A stretch of DNA of 51,926 nt from Candidatus Acidiferrales bacterium (lineage in GTDB: Bacteria; Bacteroidota; Ignavibacteria; Kryptoniales; JAKASW01), in the NCBI GenBank assembly GCA_035515795.1, contig DATJAY010000019.1, forward strand, positions 1 to 51,926, in the 5' to 3' direction. A program made the translations under genes and the position numbers. The notes under the pieces are model-generated. The model was not told the origin of the DNA. It did not search any database and saw nothing but the letters and a program-made list of their open reading frames with translations. This document shows, one piece after another, positions 27,210-43,847 of this stretch; position 1 is the first letter of the stretch; the number at the start of each line of letters is the position of its first letter.

Positions 27210-29796
<2,587 letters not shown>

Positions 29797-34446: not shown

Positions 34447-34689
34447 CTAAATCTGTTGGCTCTTATCTAATGTGGTTCTTTTCCGGATGCGAGCATAGAG
34501 ATAACGAACGGAAAGCAAAAGTGGGCATCGTTGCCCAAAGTCAGTGACGCCAAGAAAGAGCGCCGCAAGGCCAGCGAGATAAAGCCATACGCTTTGCACA
34601 GCATCGATGATAACAAGGACGGCAGCAATCCCCGCAGCGATAAATGCAAACAATCGTCGCAAGGAAATATGGTTTTTAAGAATTGACAC
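34447..34689 (-). CDS. YgaP-like transmembrane (DUF2892-type) protein
   Basis: 80 aa from a GTG at 34689, preceded by AAGGA. Two transmembrane helices (LFAFIAAGIAAVLVIIDAVQ and WLYLAGLAALFLGVTDF) are followed by RCPLLLSVRYLY, matching the CPLY-type motif after the second helix in YgaP/DUF2892 proteins. In YgaP this membrane part is fused to rhodanese, linking the family to sulfur chemistry. It is seven bases downstream of a second DUF2892 gene. Confidence 0.65.
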   Translation of the reverse strand: MSILKNHISLRRLFAFIAAGIAAVLVIIDAVQSVWLYLAGLAALFLGVTDFGQRCPLLLSVRYLYARIRKRTTLDKSQQI

Positions 34690-34695
34690 AGGGAG

Positions 34696-34908
34696 TTATC
34701 CTTTAGCGGCTTCCTTCTTTGTCGAAAGCTTGAAAGGGACATATAGAGGGCAAAAGCTCACGATGCTTGTCAACAGGAAAATCACAGCCACGATTCCAAG
34801 GATGAGAGCCAGTATCCCATTGATCTGACCTGCCAGATAAAGAATGCCGATCAATAAAGCTATGATCACTCGAATTGTGCGGTCGACAGAACCCATGTTC
34901 TTCTTCAT
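34696..34908 (-). CDS. YgaP-like transmembrane (DUF2892) protein
   Basis: 70 aa with AAAGGAG before the ATG. It opens KKNMGSVDRTIRVIIALLIG, the classic DUF2892 start, has two helices (VIIALLIGILYLAGQ, ILALILGIVAVIFLLTSIVS) and the FCPLYVPF motif. The C-terminus is charged. The role is uncertain; family members occur with rhodanese, TusA and YeeE-type sulfur genes, consistent with the neighbourhood. It is divergent from the thioredoxin gene. Confidence 0.85.
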   Translation of the reverse strand: MKKNMGSVDRTIRVIIALLIGILYLAGQINGILALILGIVAVIFLLTSIVSFCPLYVPFKLSTKKEAAKG

Positions 34909-35080
34909 TTTAATCTCCTTTAAGAAATTTACAAAGTGATAGGTATCGTGGATATGATGATTCCGACAGCAAAACGGTTCACGATAAATAGGAGATTTCT
35001 TGACGGTGCAGGCTGAATCGTTTTCTTTCGTTTATCATCTCATTTAAGAAATAAGCAGTTTCAACCAAAGGAGTTTACCA

Positions 35081-35455
35081 ATGCCTGAGCATTTAACGAA
35101 GCAGACATTTTTAGAAAAGATTTTTAATTACGAAAAGAACAAGGAATGGAAGTTTGAAGGTGATCTACCAGCCATGGTAGACTTCTGGGCTCCCTGGTGT
35201 GGTCCATGCAGGATGGTAGGACCAGTTATTGACGAGCTCTCGAAAGAATATGCCGGGAAAGTGAGCTTCTATAAAGTGAACACCGATGTGGAGCAGGAAC
35301 TTGCGGGTGTGTTTGGCATTCAAAGCATCCCGTCGCTTCTTTTCGTTCCCAAAGATGGAACGCCCAAGATGGCTATGGGTGCACTGCCGAAATCCGAGCT
35401 GAAGAGAATCATTGAACAAGAATTATTGGTTCCCAGTTTGTCAGTGGTCGCGTGA
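35081..35455 (+). CDS. trxA: thioredoxin
   Basis: 124 aa, slightly longer than TrxA, with AAAGGAG before the ATG. The active site WCGPC (Cys40/Cys43) lies in MVDFWAPWCGPCRM, and the cis-proline loop is GIQSIPSLLFV. There is no signal peptide, so it is cytoplasmic. It reduces disulfides and persulfides. It overlaps the DUF6132 gene by GTGA and sits beside DsrE, TusA and Hdr/Qmo genes, so it may serve that sulfur-transfer pathway; this is inference. Confidence 0.95.
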   Translation: MPEHLTKQTFLEKIFNYEKNKEWKFEGDLPAMVDFWAPWCGPCRMVGPVIDELSKEYAGKVSFYKVNTDVEQELAGVFGIQSIPSLLFVPKDGTPKMAMGALPKSELKRIIEQELLVPSLSVVA

Positions 35456-35685
35456 AGAATCTTGTAGTCTTCATCCGAAGATATTTTACCGGATCAACCT
35501 TACATAAGCGCATTCTGTACGTGTTTCTCGGGGCTGCCGGAGGTTATGCGTACTACCATTTCATCGGCTGTAGCTCGGGCGCATGTCCGATCTCAAGCGA
35601 TCCCTGGATTAGCACGTTCTACGGAATGGCAATGGGGTACATCCTGGCGATCGGAAAATATGAAAAGAAGAGCGACGAGCATTAA
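35452..35685 (+). CDS. DUF6132-family small membrane protein
   Basis: 77 aa from a GTG that overlaps the thioredoxin stop (GTGA), so translation is coupled. GAAGGYAYYHFIGCSSGACP carries a Gly-rich helix and two cysteines, followed by ISSDPWISTFYGMAMGYIL, typical of the DUF6132 family. Two short membrane helices are predicted. The Cys pair next to thioredoxin suggests redox exchange, but the function is not known. Confidence 0.75.
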   Translation: MKNLVVFIRRYFTGSTLHKRILYVFLGAAGGYAYYHFIGCSSGACPISSDPWISTFYGMAMGYILAIGKYEKKSDEH

Positions 35686-35715: not shown

Positions 35716-36078
35716 TCAGAATACGAAGGTCATTCCCGCACCGCTCGCACCCATTAGAAACGGGGGTACTTTCTCCACGACTATGCGATTGTCACGCAGG
35801 TCTTTCGGATTGATTCCCTTGTTCTCGATGGCAAGCTCGCAGAAAACGACTTTACCTTTCTGGTCCATGATAGTATTGAATAGGTCAACAGGATTCGGCA
35901 TTCCTTTCGGCGTGCCGATCTTTTCGAGTTCACCTTTGACCAGCGCTTGTGCACCAGCCGGACAGAAAAACATGTGCACCTCATAGTCGAGTGCAATGCC
36001 GGATGAGGCAAAAATCAACGCCGGCATGATATTGCTCGGTGCTGAACCGTTGCATACGACGATCATCTTCTCAGCCAT
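35716..36078 (-). CDS. DsrE/DsrF-like family protein
   Basis: 120 aa with a strong AAAGGAG site. The fold markers KMIVVCNGSAPSNIMPALIF, EVHMFFCPAGAQALVKG and GKVVFCELAIENKGI fit the DsrE/F/H-like Rossmannoid sulfur-relay family. Cys9, Cys39 and Cys80 are candidate persulfide carriers. It is the last gene of the TusA-Hdr/Qmo operon, 65 bases after the QmoC-like gene, and converges on the thioredoxin-DUF6132 pair. It likely passes sulfane sulfur to or from TusA. Confidence 0.8.
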   Translation of the reverse strand: MAEKMIVVCNGSAPSNIMPALIFASSGIALDYEVHMFFCPAGAQALVKGELEKIGTPKGMPNPVDLFNTIMDQKGKVVFCELAIENKGINPKDLRDNRIVVEKVPPFLMGASGAGMTFVF

Positions 36079-36143
36079 TTTAGGATCTCCTTTGATTTTG
36101 TGTTTAAGCTTTGGTTCGATTTCACATTCTCAACCATCCACTT

Positions 36144-37313
36144 TCATTCCTTCACTTCAGCCACGACAGGTTCCGTTTCAGGGACGGGCCTGAGAGCCTG
36201 AACGTAAAGAGCTATTGTTCTATAAATGATATGTGCAAACTTTGTGAAAGGCAGAAGTATAAGCAGCTCTCCGACAGCAACCAAATGAGCAATAAGCATC
36301 CAGTAACTCCATACGTGCGGCTCCGGCAGATAAACAGCGATCTCCAGCGCGAATCCCGTAACCGCAGACAGCCACAAGAGCGCGAGAAAAGACCAGTCAC
36401 TCACTGTTGAATGTCGATATGAGTCGTCGCCTTTTAACAGTCGCTTGATAATGATCCCTGTTACACCGTACACAAGCATGAGCCCTGCGAGCGTTCCGAG
36501 CAGTCGGACAGGATACCAGATAGGCACCCATGTTCCCGTCGGCTTAATTCCCATGAGTGCAAGGAGAAAATCCATTGCCGTCGCGAGGAACAATCCCATG
36601 AATCCCCACAGCATCGACGCGTGCAGAAACCATTTCTGAGAATACCACCGCTGAGTTCTCGAATAGGACTCGCAATCTTGTCGATATCTCTCCTGCATGA
36701 AAACTTCTTTGATCGTTTCAATGACAGCGGACTTATGATCTACGCGGAGGTCTTCAGGAATTGCGATGCTCTTTCTGATGCTGGAAATCATGCTGATACT
36801 TCCGCCCACAGCTATCATGATGACGACAAGCCCGGCGATTACCCCGACATCATGTATCACCTCGGAGGGAATGAAGTCGAACAGTCGAAGCGATTGAGTC
36901 GGCATTGGACCATGGAAAGAGTAAATGAAAGTTCCGAGCACCGCCGCCAGTAGAAGAAGAAACAGAACGTTAAATAACGGTGAGGTGTACATCAGGCTGG
37001 CCAATCTGAGTCGATCATACCCCGCAATTGCAAATCGTCTCGCTGCCGCCATGAATTCTCCCGGATCAGCCTGTCGCGGACATGTTGCCGTGCACTCACC
37101 GCATGAATAGCAGAGCCAAAGTTCTTTGCTTCCGAGAAGCTTATCCTTCATTCCGAGCTGACCGTAGCGGATCATCCTGCGCGGGAAGTTGTCTTCGTCC
37201 GAAGAGAGAGGACACACAGCAGTACAGTTGCCGCAATTAAAGCATGACTCGATATTCACCGCTCCATATTCTCGAAGCTGGGAAAGGAAGCTCGGATCCG
37301 CTCGATAACTCAC
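36144..37313 (-). CDS. QmoC-like subunit: HdrC-type ferredoxin domain fused to cytochrome-b-type membrane domain
   Basis: Start set at GTG 37313 (389 aa): AAGGAGG is eight bases upstream, and it overlaps the preceding stop by GTGA; the longer ATG reading would overlap the HTH gene heavily. Residues 20-90 hold two [4Fe-4S] motifs (CFNCGNCTAVCP and CYSCGECTATCP), as in HdrC. About six membrane helices follow, with histidines FLHASMLWG, MLIAHLVAVGE and KFAHIIYR as haem-b ligand candidates (NarI-like fold). The length matches QmoC (about 390 aa). Predicted role: link the cytoplasmic Hdr-like flavoproteins to the quinone pool. Confidence 0.88.
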   Translation of the reverse strand: MSYRADPSFLSQLREYGAVNIESCFNCGNCTAVCPLSSDEDNFPRRMIRYGQLGMKDKLLGSKELWLCYSCGECTATCPRQADPGEFMAAARRFAIAGYDRLRLASLMYTSPLFNVLFLLLLAAVLGTFIYSFHGPMPTQSLRLFDFIPSEVIHDVGVIAGLVVIMIAVGGSISMISSIRKSIAIPEDLRVDHKSAVIETIKEVFMQERYRQDCESYSRTQRWYSQKWFLHASMLWGFMGLFLATAMDFLLALMGIKPTGTWVPIWYPVRLLGTLAGLMLVYGVTGIIIKRLLKGDDSYRHSTVSDWSFLALLWLSAVTGFALEIAVYLPEPHVWSYWMLIAHLVAVGELLILLPFTKFAHIIYRTIALYVQALRPVPETEPVVAEVKE

Positions 37314-37624
37314 GATTTCGCCTCCTTGCTTAATGAGTAGATGAAATAGTCCCCCGATTCGTCGGTTCCCGATTCCACAACAAGTCCGTATTTCTTCATT
37401 GATGCCACATGCCATAAGACCTCGTGCGCAGGTAAACCAGTCTGTTGGGCTAATTGAGGCACTGTTCGAGGACCATCCTGCATTGCTTTCTCAAGGAGTT
37501 TACGCGCGGCTTGCTGCTTCTTCAACAGTTCCTGAGCACTCTCCACAGTGGTGGAGTATTCCTTCCGGAGCTCCAGGAGCATCCGCGTGCGCTCGCGCGC
37601 TTCCTGCTTCTTGTCGACAGTCAT
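37310..37624 (-). CDS. winged-helix regulator inside the Hdr/Qmo operon
   Basis: 104 aa. An N-terminal coiled coil (EARERTRMLLELRKEYSTTV, AQELLKKQQAARKLLEKAM) is followed by a winged helix with RTVPQLAQQTGLPAHEVLWH, VASMKKYGLV and a beta wing YFIYSL. It is translationally coupled on both sides: its ATG overlaps the HdrA-like stop (37621-37624) and its stop overlaps the QmoC-like GTG. A DNA-binding protein placed between complex subunits is unusual; it may regulate the operon or have been adapted as an accessory factor. Confidence 0.75.
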   Translation of the reverse strand: MTVDKKQEARERTRMLLELRKEYSTTVESAQELLKKQQAARKLLEKAMQDGPRTVPQLAQQTGLPAHEVLWHVASMKKYGLVVESGTDESGDYFIYSLSKEAKS

Positions 37625-39447
37625 GCGATATCCTCCAATGATGGCACATCAGCAGCAATGGCTTGCACCATGGCTTCATATTCGTCAAGCTGCCATCCCT
37701 GGACATCGATAGCTCTGTTCGGACAGGCACTGACACACACTCCGCAGCCGTTGCAGTTCGCTTCTGTCACCACAGCCCGCTGAGTTGATTTACCGGCAAC
37801 GTTGACTGTTTCAAGGTGGATGGCGCCTTCCTGCGGACATAATCGGACGCACTCTCCGCTGCCCTCGCAAAGATTCGGATCCACTCGCGCTACGTAAGGC
37901 TCAAGTTCAACTTCTCCGCGGCACAAGAGAATGCTGACCTTTGAAGCCGCAGCCTCTGCAGCTGCGCAACTCTCCAGAACGTTCATGGGTGCCTGTGCCG
38001 TGCCAGCTAATACAACGCCCGGAACCGCCGTCTCGACGGGCCTTAGTTTGGGATGCACCTCAAGAAGGAACCGATCGCTCCCCGGAGCAACTTTGAACAT
38101 GCTCATCAAATCCTGAATGGGACTCGGCATCATACCAACGGAAAGGACAACCAAATCCACGGGCAGTTGGACCTCTTCTCCCCATGTCAGATGGTCTTTT
38201 ACTTTCACCAGGAGGGGAAATTGGTCGCCTTCTTCAGCATGGACAACCTCGGGCACTTCCTCGGCAAAGTAGCGAAGGAACGTAACGCGGTTCTTCGAGG
38301 CTCTCAAATAATAATCTTCATGACCGCGGCCGTAAGCGCGGATGTCCTGATAGACATCGTACACATTTACATTGGGGAATTTCTCACGGATTTCATTTGC
38401 AGCTGCCAGCGTGGCAGTACAGCAAACCCGCGAGCAATAGTCGTTCACTTTGCCGTCGGACTGAGGCTTGTGCACGCCTTCGACCTGTCGGCTCCCTACG
38501 CAATGGATCATCGCGACGCTGCGGACAGCATGGTTGTTCCACATTAGCTCGTGGTCGGTATGGTTTGACAGGATGCTTTCGAGTTTAGGCAGCGTGATAA
38601 CTTCGGGATAAATTCCGTAGCCAAGCTCGCCCTGGTATGGATCGTACGGTTCGAAACCAGTCGCAATGACGATTGCGCCAATTTTTAAGTCGGTCTCGGT
38701 GGATTGTTTTCGAATTCTTACCTCGAAATTTCCGACATATCCTTTCGAGGAGATCACTTCCGTTTCTGTCATCACTTCGATTTTCTTCTCAGCCATCACA
38801 TCGGCGATGAGACGGTTCACAACTTTGCGGGCATCTTCATCTGTCGGGAAAAGCCGATTCCACTGCATGACGTGTCCGCCGAGGGAGTTGCTTTTCTCGA
38901 TGAGCGTCACTCTCAATCCGCCGCGAGCAATCGAAAGGGCAGCACGCAATCCCGCCACTCCGCCGCCGATGACGAGGACGTGTTTCTCGGCATCGAGACG
39001 AATTGACTCGAGCGGTCGCATCTTGCTTGCTTTCGCAACGCCTGCAGACATCATCCTCACAGCCTTTTCTGTTGCTTCAAGCGGACAATCATGGTGCACC
39101 CAACTGTCCTGCTCTCGTAACCCGATGTGATAATAGAAGTACGGATTCAATCCTGCACGCTGGACTGTCTTTCGAAAAGTCTGCTCGTGAAGGAAAATGG
39201 AGCACGCTCCCACGACGACACGATTGACGCCGTTCTCCCTGATGTCCTCGGTGATAAGCTTCTGGCCAATATCTGAGCACATAAACTGACAGCGCCGTGA
39301 CACAGCCACGTTCGGAAGTCTTGGTAGAGCTTCTGCAACTTTCTGACAGTTCACCGTATCGCTGATGTTCCCGCCGCAGTCACAAATGTAAACGCCGATC
39401 CTCGGCTCCACTCCCTCCATTTCCCTCTTCTCAGGATTATCAGACAT
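37621..39447 (-). CDS. HdrA/QmoB-like flavin iron-sulfur protein
   Basis: 608 aa from ATG 39447, with AGGGAG eight bases upstream (a TTG two codons earlier is too close). The N-terminal HdrA domain has ICDCGGNI (Cys22/Cys24) and VVGACSIFLHEQTF. The FAD Rossmann motif is VLVIGGGVAGLRAAL, and IHCVGSRQ and YCSRVCC follow. Two C-terminal ferredoxin motifs: CEGSGECVRLCP, in which the second Cys is Ser, and an intact CNGCGVCVSACP. QmoB proteins usually also carry an MvhD domain; here that domain is a separate gene (40776-41219). Predicted cytoplasmic electron-transfer subunit. Its 5' end overlaps the upstream HdrA-like gene. Confidence 0.88.
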   Translation of the reverse strand: MSDNPEKREMEGVEPRIGVYICDCGGNISDTVNCQKVAEALPRLPNVAVSRRCQFMCSDIGQKLITEDIRENGVNRVVVGACSIFLHEQTFRKTVQRAGLNPYFYYHIGLREQDSWVHHDCPLEATEKAVRMMSAGVAKASKMRPLESIRLDAEKHVLVIGGGVAGLRAALSIARGGLRVTLIEKSNSLGGHVMQWNRLFPTDEDARKVVNRLIADVMAEKKIEVMTETEVISSKGYVGNFEVRIRKQSTETDLKIGAIVIATGFEPYDPYQGELGYGIYPEVITLPKLESILSNHTDHELMWNNHAVRSVAMIHCVGSRQVEGVHKPQSDGKVNDYCSRVCCTATLAAANEIREKFPNVNVYDVYQDIRAYGRGHEDYYLRASKNRVTFLRYFAEEVPEVVHAEEGDQFPLLVKVKDHLTWGEEVQLPVDLVVLSVGMMPSPIQDLMSMFKVAPGSDRFLLEVHPKLRPVETAVPGVVLAGTAQAPMNVLESCAAAEAAASKVSILLCRGEVELEPYVARVDPNLCEGSGECVRLCPQEGAIHLETVNVAGKSTQRAVVTEANCNGCGVCVSACPNRAIDVQGWQLDEYEAMVQAIAADVPSLEDIA

Positions 39448-40765
39448 TGGCAAGACTCCCTGAGATTACCTTTTCCGAGAAGTTGGCTTCGATAAAGGCG
39501 GCGGCTTCTGCCGCTGCAGCACCAGCTGTCATGATGCTATCCACGATATCCATCGGGCCAGTCGCTGTTCCAGCAGCGAAAACGCCAGACTGCGGGGTGA
39601 CGGTGGGTGCAATGTTGCAATCGGGGATTTCAACAAAACAATCATAGGCCGGGGCGACGCCGAATATTTTTTCCGCATTCGAGCCCGGCAGCATGCCAAC
39701 TGAAAGAACGACAAGATCGTGCCTTCGTTCGATCAGGTGCGAATTGTCATCGATCATCTCCACGCGGACGACGAGACTCTGGTCAGAGTCTTCGGATATC
39801 CTGGCCACCTTTGCCTTCACAAACTCAATTCCCATAGCCTTCGCGCTCTGGTAAAACTGCTCGTATCCCTTTCCGAACGTACGGATATCCATGTAATAGA
39901 TCGTGATGTCTGCCATCGGAAGTGTTCCTGAGAGAAGCATCGCCTGTTTGATTGCGTACATGCAGCATACCCGGGAACAATATGGTACACCAAGAGTCTG
40001 ATCTCTCGACCCGGCACATTGAACATAAGCGATGGAGGATGGTTGTTTCCCATCAGAAGGACGCACCACATGCCCGTACGGCCCTGTCGGAGACAGGAGC
40101 CGTTCCATCATGAGTCCATCGATCACATTTCTGAATTTTCCCGAGCCATATTCCTTTTTGGCATTCCGCGGAGTTGTCTCATAGCCTGTAGCGAGTATGA
40201 TTGTCTTCGCTTCGACCTCTATCTCTTCAGGCTTTTGGTGAAAGTCGATGACGTTCGGCGCACAAGCAGGAATGCACTTGCCACAAAACACACAATGATC
40301 GATATCGATGACCGCTTTTTGCGGAACCGCAGTTGCGAACGGCACGTAAATGACACGACGACCGATGCGACCGAATTCGTTCTCGTTATCCGGCAATTCA
40401 AGCGGACAAACCAGCTCACAAGCTCTGCAGCCCGTGCAATCATCCTCATTCACGTAACGCGGCTTCTTAGTTATTTGCACAGCGAACGTATCGCCGTTGC
40501 GAGCGACAGACCTCACCTCGCAGTATGTCAATAGTTCAATGTTGTCATGATGAGCAACTGCCGACATCTTGGGAGTAGTGATGCAGCTGCAGCAGTCGAG
40601 AGTTGGAAAGACTTTGCTCAGGCCGATCATTTTTCCGCCGACACTCGGATTCTTTTCGACCAGTGCGACTTTGTAGCCTTGATCGGCGAGATCAAGAGCC
40701 GACTGCATGCCGGCGATTCCCCCTCCAACTACGAGCGTATCAACATTCAATTTGTTTGTCGTCAT
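39440..40765 (-). CDS. HdrA/QmoA-like flavin iron-sulfur protein
   Basis: 441 aa. The FAD motif LVVGGGIAGMQSALDLADQG opens the protein; FPTLDCCSCITTPKM is the HdrA-type Cys cluster. Two [4Fe-4S] ferredoxin motifs are DDCTGCRACELVCP and DHCVFCGKCIPACAP. YVQCAGSRD and PYCSRVCC follow, as in QmoA and HdrA. Length fits QmoA. With the second HdrA-like protein and the QmoC-like subunit it makes a three-part Qmo-type set. QmoABC in sulfate reducers moves electrons between quinol and APS reductase; no AprAB or Sat is in this window, so the partner must be different or elsewhere. Confidence 0.9.
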   Translation of the reverse strand: MTTNKLNVDTLVVGGGIAGMQSALDLADQGYKVALVEKNPSVGGKMIGLSKVFPTLDCCSCITTPKMSAVAHHDNIELLTYCEVRSVARNGDTFAVQITKKPRYVNEDDCTGCRACELVCPLELPDNENEFGRIGRRVIYVPFATAVPQKAVIDIDHCVFCGKCIPACAPNVIDFHQKPEEIEVEAKTIILATGYETTPRNAKKEYGSGKFRNVIDGLMMERLLSPTGPYGHVVRPSDGKQPSSIAYVQCAGSRDQTLGVPYCSRVCCMYAIKQAMLLSGTLPMADITIYYMDIRTFGKGYEQFYQSAKAMGIEFVKAKVARISEDSDQSLVVRVEMIDDNSHLIERRHDLVVLSVGMLPGSNAEKIFGVAPAYDCFVEIPDCNIAPTVTPQSGVFAAGTATGPMDIVDSIMTAGAAAAEAAAFIEANFSEKVISGSLANV

Positions 40766-40775
40766 TTAACTTTGT

Positions 40776-41219
40776 CTATTCTGTCAGCTGCTTTGTTTCC
40801 TTGTTCGTGCGCACGACCGGTCCAATCTCACCGAGTAACACGTTCATTTTTTGAATCTCGTTGAGGAACGGTCGTACACAGACGGTGCAGATAGCCGCCA
40901 GTCTCAACCGGCGGGTATCCATCCCTCGCTCTTTCATCTTGGCGTACGTCTCATTGATTATTTCTGCCGTCCGTTCCGACTCACCTTTATAAGGACTGTC
41001 GGTACCGCTGTACATTACGATTACAGCATCGAAACCTTGCTCTAACGAATTCAGGTAGAACTGAGGCGGGAAAATTGCCGAGGTTCTTATAGGAAGTATA
41101 AACGTGTTCGGCGAGTAATCGAGGTGAGATTGCCCAGCGGAGTCCGCACCCCGATAGCCGCCCGACAGCGTCGCGAGCAATAGGATCTTGCAATTATTTT
41201 TTGTTGTACTTGCTGCCAT
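40776..41219 (-). CDS. MvhD/FlpD-like (hydrogenase iron-sulfur subunit family) protein lacking the usual cysteines
   Basis: 147 aa. The fold matches the MvhD family: GADSAGQSHLDYSPN, FILPIRTSA, FDAVIVMYSGTDSPYKGESE and the C-terminal RLRLAAICTVC with EIQKM. Typical MvhD has Cys in FYCNWC, VMCSG and GCHPGDCHY; here the equivalents are LATLSG, IRTSA and MYSGTDSPY, without Cys. Only ICTVC keeps a pair. It therefore probably lacks the [2Fe-2S] cluster, or binds something else. It sits between TusA and the QmoA-like gene, ten bases before the latter, where QmoB-type complexes need an MvhD unit. Confidence 0.7.
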   Translation of the reverse strand: MAASTTKNNCKILLLATLSGGYRGADSAGQSHLDYSPNTFILPIRTSAIFPPQFYLNSLEQGFDAVIVMYSGTDSPYKGESERTAEIINETYAKMKERGMDTRRLRLAAICTVCVRPFLNEIQKMNVLLGEIGPVVRTNKETKQLTE

Positions 41220-41270
41220 ACGACATCACATAGTTCACCATTATAGATAAATCAGCCCCGCTTGTATTCA

Positions 41271-41528
41271 CTACTTTTTCCTGCGAACGAAGAGACGGTC
41301 GTAGCCGTCGGCGGAAACAACTCCGAGAAATTCATGGCCGACTTTCTGGCACCAGGCTGGCATATCTTTCTTGGTGTTCGGATCGCCCGACCATATCTCG
41401 AGCACTTCTCCAACTTTGACTGTGCCGATGCTCTTCTTGGCTTCGAGCAGCGGGCCAGGACATGCCATGGCACGGGCGTCTGCCACCTTGTCAGCTTTCA
41501 TTGTGTTAAGATCGATAGTTGTTGACAT
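41271..41528 (-). CDS. tusA: TusA-family sulfurtransferase
   Basis: 85 aa with AGAGGAG upstream. The signature DARAMACPGPLLEAKKSI carries the catalytic Cys23 in CPGP; the second half has GEVLEIWSGDPNTKKDMPAWCQKVGHE with another Cys. TusA carries sulfane sulfur as a persulfide in the cytoplasm. Placed in front of Hdr/Qmo-like genes and with DsrE at the end of the same operon, it is more likely a carrier to the redox complex than a tRNA-thiolation factor; this is by analogy with sHdr and Dsr gene clusters. Confidence 0.92.
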   Translation of the reverse strand: MSTTIDLNTMKADKVADARAMACPGPLLEAKKSIGTVKVGEVLEIWSGDPNTKKDMPAWCQKVGHEFLGVVSADGYDRLFVRRKK

Positions 41529-41555
41529 ACAAATTCTCCTCTATACAAAATTTGG

Positions 41556-41987
41556 TTACGTTGATTCGCTGCTATTCTCGACCGAATGCCATTGGATCCA
41601 ATTCGCGAATTCAGCTCTCATGTTCTCCGGGAGGCTTGCAAGGACCTCTGTTGCAAGGTCTTTCGAGCTGGACAACAACCTTTCCGACATTCCGCGTCCA
41701 AGGTCGGTGAGTACGACTTGCTCCTTGCGCCTGTCGGAGGAATGCAAGGCAATTTCGATGTATTTCATTTTCTGGAGCTTGGATAGAATCTTAGAGGTGG
41801 AGGTGCAGGAAAGATCTACGATGGAGCTTAATTCGCTGACGGATTTCAACTCCTGCAAGTACAGGATCAATAGGCAAATGATTTCATTTGTGGACAAGCC
41901 CGTCCCACTGGCAAGTCTCTTTTGAAACCGACGGCATGCAAGAGCTAACCGAAGCATACTTGTGCCGGATGCGTAGTCTTTCGTCAT
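41556..41987 (-). CDS. MarR-family transcriptional regulator
   Basis: 143 aa with GGAAGGA before the ATG. It shows the MarR winged helix: LSTNEIICLLILYLQELKSV, VDLSCTSTSKILSKLQKM (recognition helix), YIEIALHSSDRRKEQVVLTD (wing with the DRR motif) and C-terminal dimer helices. It is first in the TusA-Hdr/Qmo operon, 27 bases before tusA, and an imperfect inverted repeat lies upstream at 42017-42042. Likely autoregulatory. Cys17 and Cys38 could sense redox, but this is speculative. Confidence 0.88.
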   Translation of the reverse strand: MTKDYASGTSMLRLALACRRFQKRLASGTGLSTNEIICLLILYLQELKSVSELSSIVDLSCTSTSKILSKLQKMKYIEIALHSSDRRKEQVVLTDLGRGMSERLLSSSKDLATEVLASLPENMRAEFANWIQWHSVENSSEST

Positions 41988-43301: not shown

Positions 43302-43847
43302 TCATGGTAGTAGAATTGCTGCCGCCACAACAGTCGTCCATAATCCAGTCCTATCCCCCTCGGCCGTCTGAGTTACGTTGAAAGTTCGGACAATTTTCTC
43401 CGACATTTTGAAAACCTGCTCGCGCTCGTTCCAGTCAGTGTTCGGTTCGAATTCGACTCCGAGTGTGGTTGCAAGCATTTGCGCAGCGAGGTCCTCGGCG
43501 TAATCACCAGCCGATTTCTCATTGACGCCGAACGCGTGGTGTTCGGACAGATAACCATATTGGTTGGATTCGGCAGGAATTGCGGCTCCTATAGATGCTG
43601 CCACGAGGCGGTTCGGTTCGTTCGTCGCGCTGCGTGCCATGACGGTGAAGGTGATCTGGCCGCTTTGTATTTCCTTCAGTCCATCCGCCAGGGTGATCCT
43701 TTTACAACAGGGAGGGAATATGCTACTGACTGAGACAAGGTTGCACTTTTCGATTCCGGCATCCCTAAGGGCGAGCTCAAATGAACTTAGATAATCCTTG
43801 TGTTTTCCGACACCTTTTGTGAAAAATATTCTCGATGGCACAAACAT
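43302..43847 (-). CDS. pdaD: pyruvoyl-dependent arginine decarboxylase
   Basis: 181 aa, close to the usual 165-180. The processing site is [12 protein letters not shown]: cleavage between Ser41 and Ser42 would give the pyruvoyl group on the larger subunit, as in the Methanocaldococcus enzyme. Other family motifs are [24 protein letters not shown] at the start, [23 protein letters not shown] and [20 protein letters not shown]. It makes agmatine from arginine, the first step to polyamines; no agmatinase is adjacent. It is four bases downstream of the zinc-ribbon gene, in the middle of the operon. Confidence 0.9.

Follow-up and report, generated by a model that had tools for sequence, protein, structure and literature searches.

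The stretch of DNA analysed here (the window, 51,926 nucleotides) is contig DATJAY010000019.1 of assembly GCA_035515795.1, from Candidatus Acidiferrales bacterium, which GTDB places in JAKASW01 (Bacteroidota; Ignavibacteria; Kryptoniales). Between positions 35,716 and 41,987 it carries an operon of eight intact minus-strand genes in the order MarR-TusA-MvhD-QmoA-QmoB-wHTH-QmoC-DsrE, where wHTH is a small winged-helix protein (Table 1). QmoABC is the quinone-interacting membrane oxidoreductase that serves as partner of APS reductase, and MvhD is the adapter that joins a hydrogenase to HdrA in the HdrABC-MvhAGD complex. The original prediction described eight minus-strand genes with small gaps or overlaps; their coordinates, strand and order all agree with that description, and each type has family support.

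Table 1. Genes of the operon, from its first gene to its last, with the profile evidence for each (E, expectation value).
Gene product	Positions	Strand	Support
MarR-family regulator, first operon gene	41556..41987	-	PF01047 E 3e-5, just under the Pfam cut-off; HTH_27 passes its cut-off
TusA sulfur carrier, CPGP at Cys23	41271..41528	-	PF01206 E 3e-19
MvhD-fold subunit, motif Cys111-x-x-Cys114	40776..41219	-	FlpD PF02662 E 1e-13
QmoA-like HdrA-family FAD/Fe-S protein	39440..40765	-	HdrA2 model E 2e-142
QmoB-like HdrA-family flavoprotein, 608 amino acids	37621..39447	-	HdrA2 model E 6e-154
Small winged-helix (wHTH) protein, in the qmoB-qmoC interval	37310..37624	-	Weak winged-helix match
QmoC-like membrane subunit, HdrC-type [4Fe-4S] and haem-b-type membrane domain	36144..37313	-	NF038018 E 7e-66, 223 bits
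DsrE-family sulfurtransferase, Cys80	35716..36078	-	PF02635/PF13686

Reading of the DNA puts the start of QmoB at the ATG at 39447, giving an 8-base overlap with the QmoA stop, and that of QmoC at the GTG at 37313, overlapping the wHTH stop; a 423-amino-acid frame that begins with ATG is not used for QmoC. There is a 4-base overlap between QmoB and wHTH. All eight genes are present in a congener (genome G255), with 84-95% protein identity to the window (92% for MarR), and the ratio of nonsynonymous to synonymous substitution rates between the two (dN/dS) is 0.02-0.12 for all eight. Because G255 keeps the eight genes at these ratios, the operon is not a product of chance or decay; it is real, intact and under selection. 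The earlier description of it as led by MarR holds for the window. However, MarR is a local feature, and other regulators are found elsewhere, namely an ArsR-type gene upstream at loci L047, L054 and L056 and a sigma-54 activator at L041.

To determine how widely these genes occur together, we used an alignment of three QmoB sequences to scan 84,980 species genomes and retained the best 80 loci, so that the distribution given here is a lower bound. Searches with the operon proteins (tblastn) found the same cluster in 35 of the best 80 loci, which with G255 and a further genome, G346, makes at least 37 loci beyond the window. Among these, TusA and MvhD are present in all 29 clusters that are readable upstream, and wHTH and QmoC in all 33 that are readable downstream, although such counts hold partly by definition, as cluster membership was assigned partly by gene content. 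Counted on the QmoA tree instead, TusA accompanies 29 of the 30 QmoA-group members readable upstream, the exception being L120. A DsrE-family gene is present in 32 of the 37 (27 by tblastn; L047, L048, L049, L051 and L065 by Pfam), and the contigs of the remaining five end in or beside the cluster. The set TusA-MvhD-QmoA-QmoB-wHTH-QmoC was thus recovered even though QmoB was the sole bait. By the same tblastn searches, the other 45 of the best 80 loci have no TusA or DsrE; 40 of them have a canonical MvhD and 12 a hydrogenase, a naming that Pfam confirmed on L042, L043, L044, L077 and L120. Host labels, which were taken from the records of metagenome-assembled genomes (MAGs), span about ten phyla: Chloroflexota, Planctomycetota, deltaproteobacterial lineages, Bacteroidota, Verrucomicrobiota, Armatimonadota, Actinomycetota, Bacillota, Aminicenantota and Acidobacteriota. 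A plasmid collection gave two distant matches. The proposal that a Qmo/Hdr-like complex is joined to TusA and DsrE is therefore borne out well beyond this contig: the genes are neither disrupted nor confined to it.

The cluster occurs in two variants. Variant 1 comprises the window, G255 and nine scanned loci, and its QmoA is about 430-460 amino acids long where complete; the window variant lacks the insert that marks the other. Variant 2 comprises L041 and 26 other loci, with mostly DsrE2 rather than DsrE, and in 20 of its 24 tree rows QmoA is about 900 amino acids long (of the other four, three end at a contig edge, and L115 is without the insert). This insert, which lies between the two ferredoxin motifs, consists of a GltD-like pyridine-nucleotide domain carrying a Fer4_20 motif. 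Because it adds a pyridine-nucleotide site, variant 2 could bifurcate electrons between NAD(P) and quinone.

What sets this HdrA/Qmo-type cluster apart appears to be an MvhD that has exchanged its partner. Canonical MvhD has five cysteines, which, from the HdrABC-MvhAGD structure, we take to be the ligands of a [2Fe-2S] cluster. In order, they are kept in 58, 49, 58, 49 and 58 of 59 canonical MvhDs (from the 40 other loci), as against 0, 4, 23, 4 and 27 of 30 cluster MvhDs. Every cluster MvhD is short of at least one, the eight variant 1 MvhDs keep them in 0, 4, 1, 4 and 5 cases, and the window's copy has none of the five. Conversely, a C[ST]VC motif is found in 30/30 cluster MvhDs and in 0/59 canonical ones. 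The predicted structure of the window's MvhD (predicted local distance difference test, pLDDT, 84) has the MvhD fold, and a fold search matched it to four chains of HdrABC-type complexes, including the MvhD chain 5odc_D, at Z 19.1-19.4, with the next fold at Z 8.6. The designation of this protein as MvhD-like thus stands as far as the fold is concerned; however, with 0/5 canonical cysteines it cannot be an ordinary [2Fe-2S] carrier. The best reading of these alignments is that MvhD has been re-tooled from a hydrogenase adapter into a sulfur-carrier adapter.

A change is also seen in QmoB. Its Cys529, in the first C-terminal ferredoxin motif, is kept in 0/11 sequences of variant 1, 19/26 of variant 2, 5/5 of Qmo and 63/63 of other HdrA-types, with hydrogenase-type and other rows outside 500-700 amino acids excluded from the count; the window has Ser529 instead (numbering of the 607-amino-acid copy). 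In HdrABC, it is the C-terminal ferredoxin domain of HdrA that receives the electrons of MvhD, so the changes in MvhD and QmoB fall on one path. Elsewhere in the complex the redox sites look conventional. The Fe-S cluster cysteines of QmoA are retained, and QmoC has 8 Fe-S cysteines and three histidines (His231, His343 and His361) that are invariant in 47/47 sequences, presumably the pattern expected of a haem-b quinone module. The predicted linkage to quinone is consistent with these conserved residues.

With its two HdrA-type flavoproteins and a membrane subunit of HdrC/haem-b type, the operon resembles canonical QmoABC, and it might be supposed that it simply encodes a QmoABC that works with APS reductase and happens to have TusA and DsrE next to it. 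The subunit types do match Qmo, and AprA scores over its cut-off in 4/38 cluster genomes. However, this compares with 5/6 control genomes (for DsrA, 3/38 with 6/6, a truncated match in G616 falling below the threshold), although absence from any one cluster host carries little weight, as most of these hosts are MAGs whose completeness is not stated. The window's genome is 100% complete (4.08 Mb, 39 contigs), and in the whole of it no AprA scores over the cut-off, the best match reaching 28 bits against 641.75. Its QmoC scores 223 bits against an equivalog cut-off of 300 (NF038018), while the five QmoCs over that cut-off score 386-512, four of them sharing a contig with aprA. Two genomes, G615 and G619, each carry a canonical QmoC in addition to a TusA-linked cluster. 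In a quick QmoA tree, made without bootstrap from 97 of 98 rows (L050, L053, L067, L069 and L081, with no QmoA or only short pieces, have no row), the cluster QmoAs form one group apart from Qmo (Shimodaira-Hasegawa-like approximate likelihood ratio test, SH-aLRT, 99), and the five canonical Qmo sequences are split off by a branch with SH-aLRT 100, the window lying outside. The window's QmoC likewise lies outside the group of five canonical QmoCs (support 100/100). Moreover, canonical QmoB has a C-terminal MvhD-like domain, according to passages of PMC4911364, and the canonical QmoBs of L135, L136, L138 and L141 measure 760-779 amino acids, whereas the window's QmoB has no fused MvhD domain and MvhD is a separate gene. 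The operon has TusA, DsrE, a CxxC-containing MvhD and wHTH instead. Because of the QmoC score, the unfused QmoB, the position of QmoA and QmoC outside the Qmo clades and the lack of AprA, we reject canonical QmoABC; given also that TusA is present in 29/29 clusters, ordinary service to APS reductase is extremely improbable. For QmoA and QmoC, the phylogenetic comparison with true Qmo that had been called for, and the possibility that aprAB would turn up with these proteins nested inside canonical QmoABC, are thereby answered.

The original prediction had also stated that none of AprAB, Sat and DsrAB is encoded here. This extends beyond the window for AprA and for DsrA, which has no match over its cut-off in the whole genome (the weak match is a NirA-like assimilatory reductase). 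Sat is present on contig C23 of the window's genome. That Sat is nonetheless assimilatory, as it is fused to APS kinase and sited with CysH, the NirA-like reductase, CysE, CysK and siroheme synthase.

A different kind of alternative is that the complex controls how much persulfide TusA carries for tRNA thiolation, molybdenum cofactor or Fe-S assembly, as part of sulfur trafficking or regulation rather than energy metabolism. In E. coli, TusA does serve such purposes, and the operon is small and MarR-led. However, any TusA at all is found in only 3/13 members of the genus; in the window's genome, the operon's TusA is the sole TusA match. As 10/13 congeners have none, the operon's TusA is not a housekeeping protein of tRNA thiolation. 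The operon is itself sporadic (2/13), and trafficking has no need for a haem-b-type membrane subunit. We therefore regard this role as quite unlikely. The active cysteine of TusA is present in 29/30 clusters, and Cys80 of DsrE in 9/9 aligned DsrE sequences.

We compared the operon with other known systems. With HdrABC-MvhAGD and with QmoC-linked hydrogenase clusters it shares HdrA-type proteins and an MvhD-fold adapter. However, it has neither a hydrogenase nor HdrB, and its MvhD has lost the canonical cysteines and gained CxxC. Of the 11 matches to the HdrB-type CCG domain (PF02754) in the window's genome, none lies on contig C19, which carries the operon; this and the 0/5 MvhD cysteines exclude HdrABC-MvhAGD, despite the MvhD fold. 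The sHdr system also links Hdr-type proteins with TusA and DsrE carriers, as in a Thermomicrobium cluster with hdrABC, etfAB, tusA, dsrE1, dsrE2 and lbpA that is described in part of PMC6776052. It is excluded by the lack of an HdrB subunit in the operon, which differs further in having a membrane QmoC, a CxxC-MvhD and two HdrA-type subunits. TusA and DsrE occur together in YTD clusters as well, which excerpts of PMC12998232 and PMC13293266 give as YedE-TusA-DsrE plus CHPs / DsrEFH type II. Here no yedE lies beside tusA and dsrE on C19 (YeeE/YedE matches are on contig C28), the operon has a Qmo-type complex, and a YTD cluster is thus excluded. Finally, a portion of PMC10504309 describes 'type II' QmoAB(C), HdrA-like Qmo proteins with or without Apr and Dsr whose role needs study. 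By that description, the only basis of comparison, the HdrA-like proteins and the optional Apr and Dsr agree with our clusters, but the same portion states no link to TusA, DsrE or a CxxC-MvhD. Full-text literature searches, whose coverage mostly excludes subscription journals, returned no recognisable description of a TusA-MvhD-Qmo-type cluster.

The wHTH protein lies between qmoB and qmoC in every cluster readable there (33/33). Its predicted structure (pLDDT 92) matched only generic winged helices in a fold search, and winged helices are common. A profile search outside the clusters (hmmsearch, E up to 1) gave 11 lines for ten proteins, seven of them below 1e-3. Five of these seven are canonical MvhD proteins with the domain at the C-terminus (in L094, L101 (two), L105 and L108; Pfam reads L105 as FlpD plus HTH), and at L078 a small wHTH-like gene adjoins MvhD. 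QmoC-linked hydrogenase clusters therefore share a similar wHTH, as an MvhD fusion or a small gene. The window's copy has no cysteines, and some others have one in the C-terminal tail. The constant position, the cysteine-free window copy and the fact that canonical MvhDs have a similar domain as a fusion or in an adjacent gene disfavour a role as a regulator. They support, without proving, that wHTH is probably a structural or docking subunit rather than a transcription regulator.

The locus L120 (8001-15918, an Acidobacteria MAG) combines a QmoB, a canonical MvhD and a [NiFe] hydrogenase with a QmoA that groups with those of the TusA clusters and with wHTH and QmoC, the last two in the same order as in the clusters. 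An exchange of partners on MvhD would be expected to yield such hybrid content, and L120 is possibly an intermediate of that process.

Given these results, we consider it rather probable that the operon encodes a membrane-bound TusA-persulfide:quinone oxidoreductase on an HdrA/Qmo scaffold. TusA would take the place of the hydrogenase as partner of MvhD, whose new CxxC would receive or donate sulfane sulfur or form a disulfide. Electrons would pass between the carrier-bound sulfur and the flavins of QmoA and QmoB, and then through QmoC to menaquinone, with DsrE loading or unloading TusA and wHTH as a structural piece of the complex. The original suggestion that persulfide sulfur is coupled to the quinone pool without Apr or Dsr is backed by the comparative evidence, from which we infer the biochemical function. 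A broader claim, which we make tentatively and hold to be possible rather than probable, is that the operon represents a respiratory complex of a new class: a persulfidated carrier, docked on CxxC-MvhD, would stand in for H2 or APS as partner of HdrA/Qmo, and the larger variant would then perform flavin-based bifurcation from sulfide/persulfide to NAD(P) and menaquinone.

The direction that we favour is oxidation, in which H2S and the TusA thiol would yield TusA persulfide and electrons would go to menaquinone. One reason is that electrons at the level of sulfide run downhill to menaquinone by standard potentials. The other is the locus L056 (3934-14181, Verrucomicrobia), where the cluster is flanked by the ArsR-type gene mentioned above, a type III SQR (640 bits against a cut-off of 525) and a DsrC-like protein with a single C-terminal cysteine, together with a PspE-like rhodanese and a second DsrE2-like gene, both below their cut-offs. 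The same complex could also run in reverse, with quinol (plus ferredoxin, NAD(P)H or proton-motive force) reducing sulfane sulfur bound to TusA or DsrE to H2S, as a sink for sulfur or polysulfide. Several hosts belong to anaerobic or fermentative lineages (Anaerolineae, Aminicenantes, Bacteroidales), HdrA-type complexes are reversible, and the QmoA of the larger variant contains an insert of NAD(P)-binding type. However, by standard potentials electrons would have to move uphill from menaquinol to persulfide, and the window variant lacks an NAD(P) module and has a changed ferredoxin motif. On balance we regard reduction as unlikely, if a good deal less so than a role in trafficking. Both the substrate and the direction of the putative oxidoreductase are put forward as proposals.

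It is important to consider several points that weigh against a TusA-persulfide:quinone oxidoreductase. The operon has no known sulfane-sulfur redox active site and no HdrB/CCG subunit, and contact between MvhD and TusA is assumed. All variant 2 MvhDs keep cysteines 3 and 5 and have one extra new cysteine (each 22/22), and might therefore bind a rearranged cluster; several canonical cysteines also remain in half of the eight variant 1 MvhDs (four). An altered Fe-S cluster is thus possible in variant 2 and in some variant 1 MvhDs, and full loss of the canonical set is clear solely for the window's own MvhD type. In the copy of TusA read from L062, the active cysteine is missing. Inserts similar to the GltD-like domain are found in HdrA-types outside the clusters and are therefore not cluster-specific. 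In the QmoC tree, cluster sequences and hydrogenase-type sequences are intermixed, and a tree with the former in one clade is rejected (approximately unbiased test, p 0.0015), which means that the complex has not been inherited strictly as one unit. The window's genome has no type III SQR; this enzyme is found in 11 of the 33 cluster genomes searched (the SQR and YeeE searches covered 33/38) and in 1/11 congeners without the operon, and sulfide oxidation therefore does not generally accompany the cluster. Lastly, the thioredoxin, DUF6132 and YgaP-type genes that adjoin the operon in the window are not beside it in G255.

The original prediction pointed to the interest of a sulfane-sulfur:quinone system in this lineage, but the operon is not a trait of the lineage. 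Only 2/13 genomes of the genus have the operon, and a scan of 391 genomes of the class at a threshold of 1e-75, which clusters scoring worse would escape, found one further cluster, the diverged one in G346 (QmoB 42%). Eight non-cluster genomes also scored under 1e-75; the loci read in two of them (L043 and L044), like a second G255 locus (L042), have hydrogenase genes. The window's QmoA groups with Chloroflexota, its nearest relatives in the QmoA tree. The upstream neighbours of the operon (pyruvoyl arginine decarboxylase, thioesterase and methyltransferase) are present without it in 4/4 congeners whose flanks were read, and as a check on contamination, the genes flanking the operon are the genus's own flank genes. 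Acquisition by transfer is probably the simplest reading, with loss in the other congeners possible.

Beyond Dsr, sHdr and the membrane SQR/Psr enzymes, we know of no established route from cytoplasmic protein-bound sulfane sulfur to the quinone pool. The recurrence of the cluster in many unrelated bacteria suggests an undescribed electron route between carrier-bound sulfur and the respiratory membrane. As it is found mostly in genomes without AprA or DsrA, it would explain how bacteria that are not noted for sulfur metabolism (Chloroflexota, Actinomycetota, Bacteroidota and Aminicenantota) handle sulfide or sulfur. The idea that partners are exchanged on MvhD, with an Fe-S adapter turning into a thiol adapter, can also be tested with this cluster.

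Some additional observations concern the cluster's surroundings. In G255, a second DsrE-family gene (L040 5899-6180, PF02635 E 2e-16) lies directly upstream of MarR. The thioredoxin, DUF6132 and YgaP-type membrane genes of the window occupy 34447-35685, and the cluster has comparable trios nearby in L055 and L116. A VKOR-type protein with an apparent CxxC is encoded near the cluster in two Chloroflexota MAGs (L050 3894-5219, below the NCBIfam cut-off, and L054 12439-13707). Among the hydrogenase-type loci, L042 (3682-12414, G255 contig C4) and L044 have a fusion of about 1490 amino acids (QmoA-like, insert, QmoB-like) beside a QmoC-like gene, and L043 has a 1083-amino-acid version of the QmoA/QmoB-like fusion; [NiFe] hydrogenase genes are near at all three. 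The YeeE/YedE-type sulfur transporter matches on contig C28 of the window's genome form a split pair (65461-66663), also present in several operon-less congeners. Elsewhere in the window, the pyruvoyl-dependent arginine decarboxylase (43302-43847, PF01862) is found in 13/13 members of the genus, twice in several, and positions 27210-29390 encode a 726-amino-acid haem peroxidase (PF00141 E 3e-74), by length a catalase-peroxidase.

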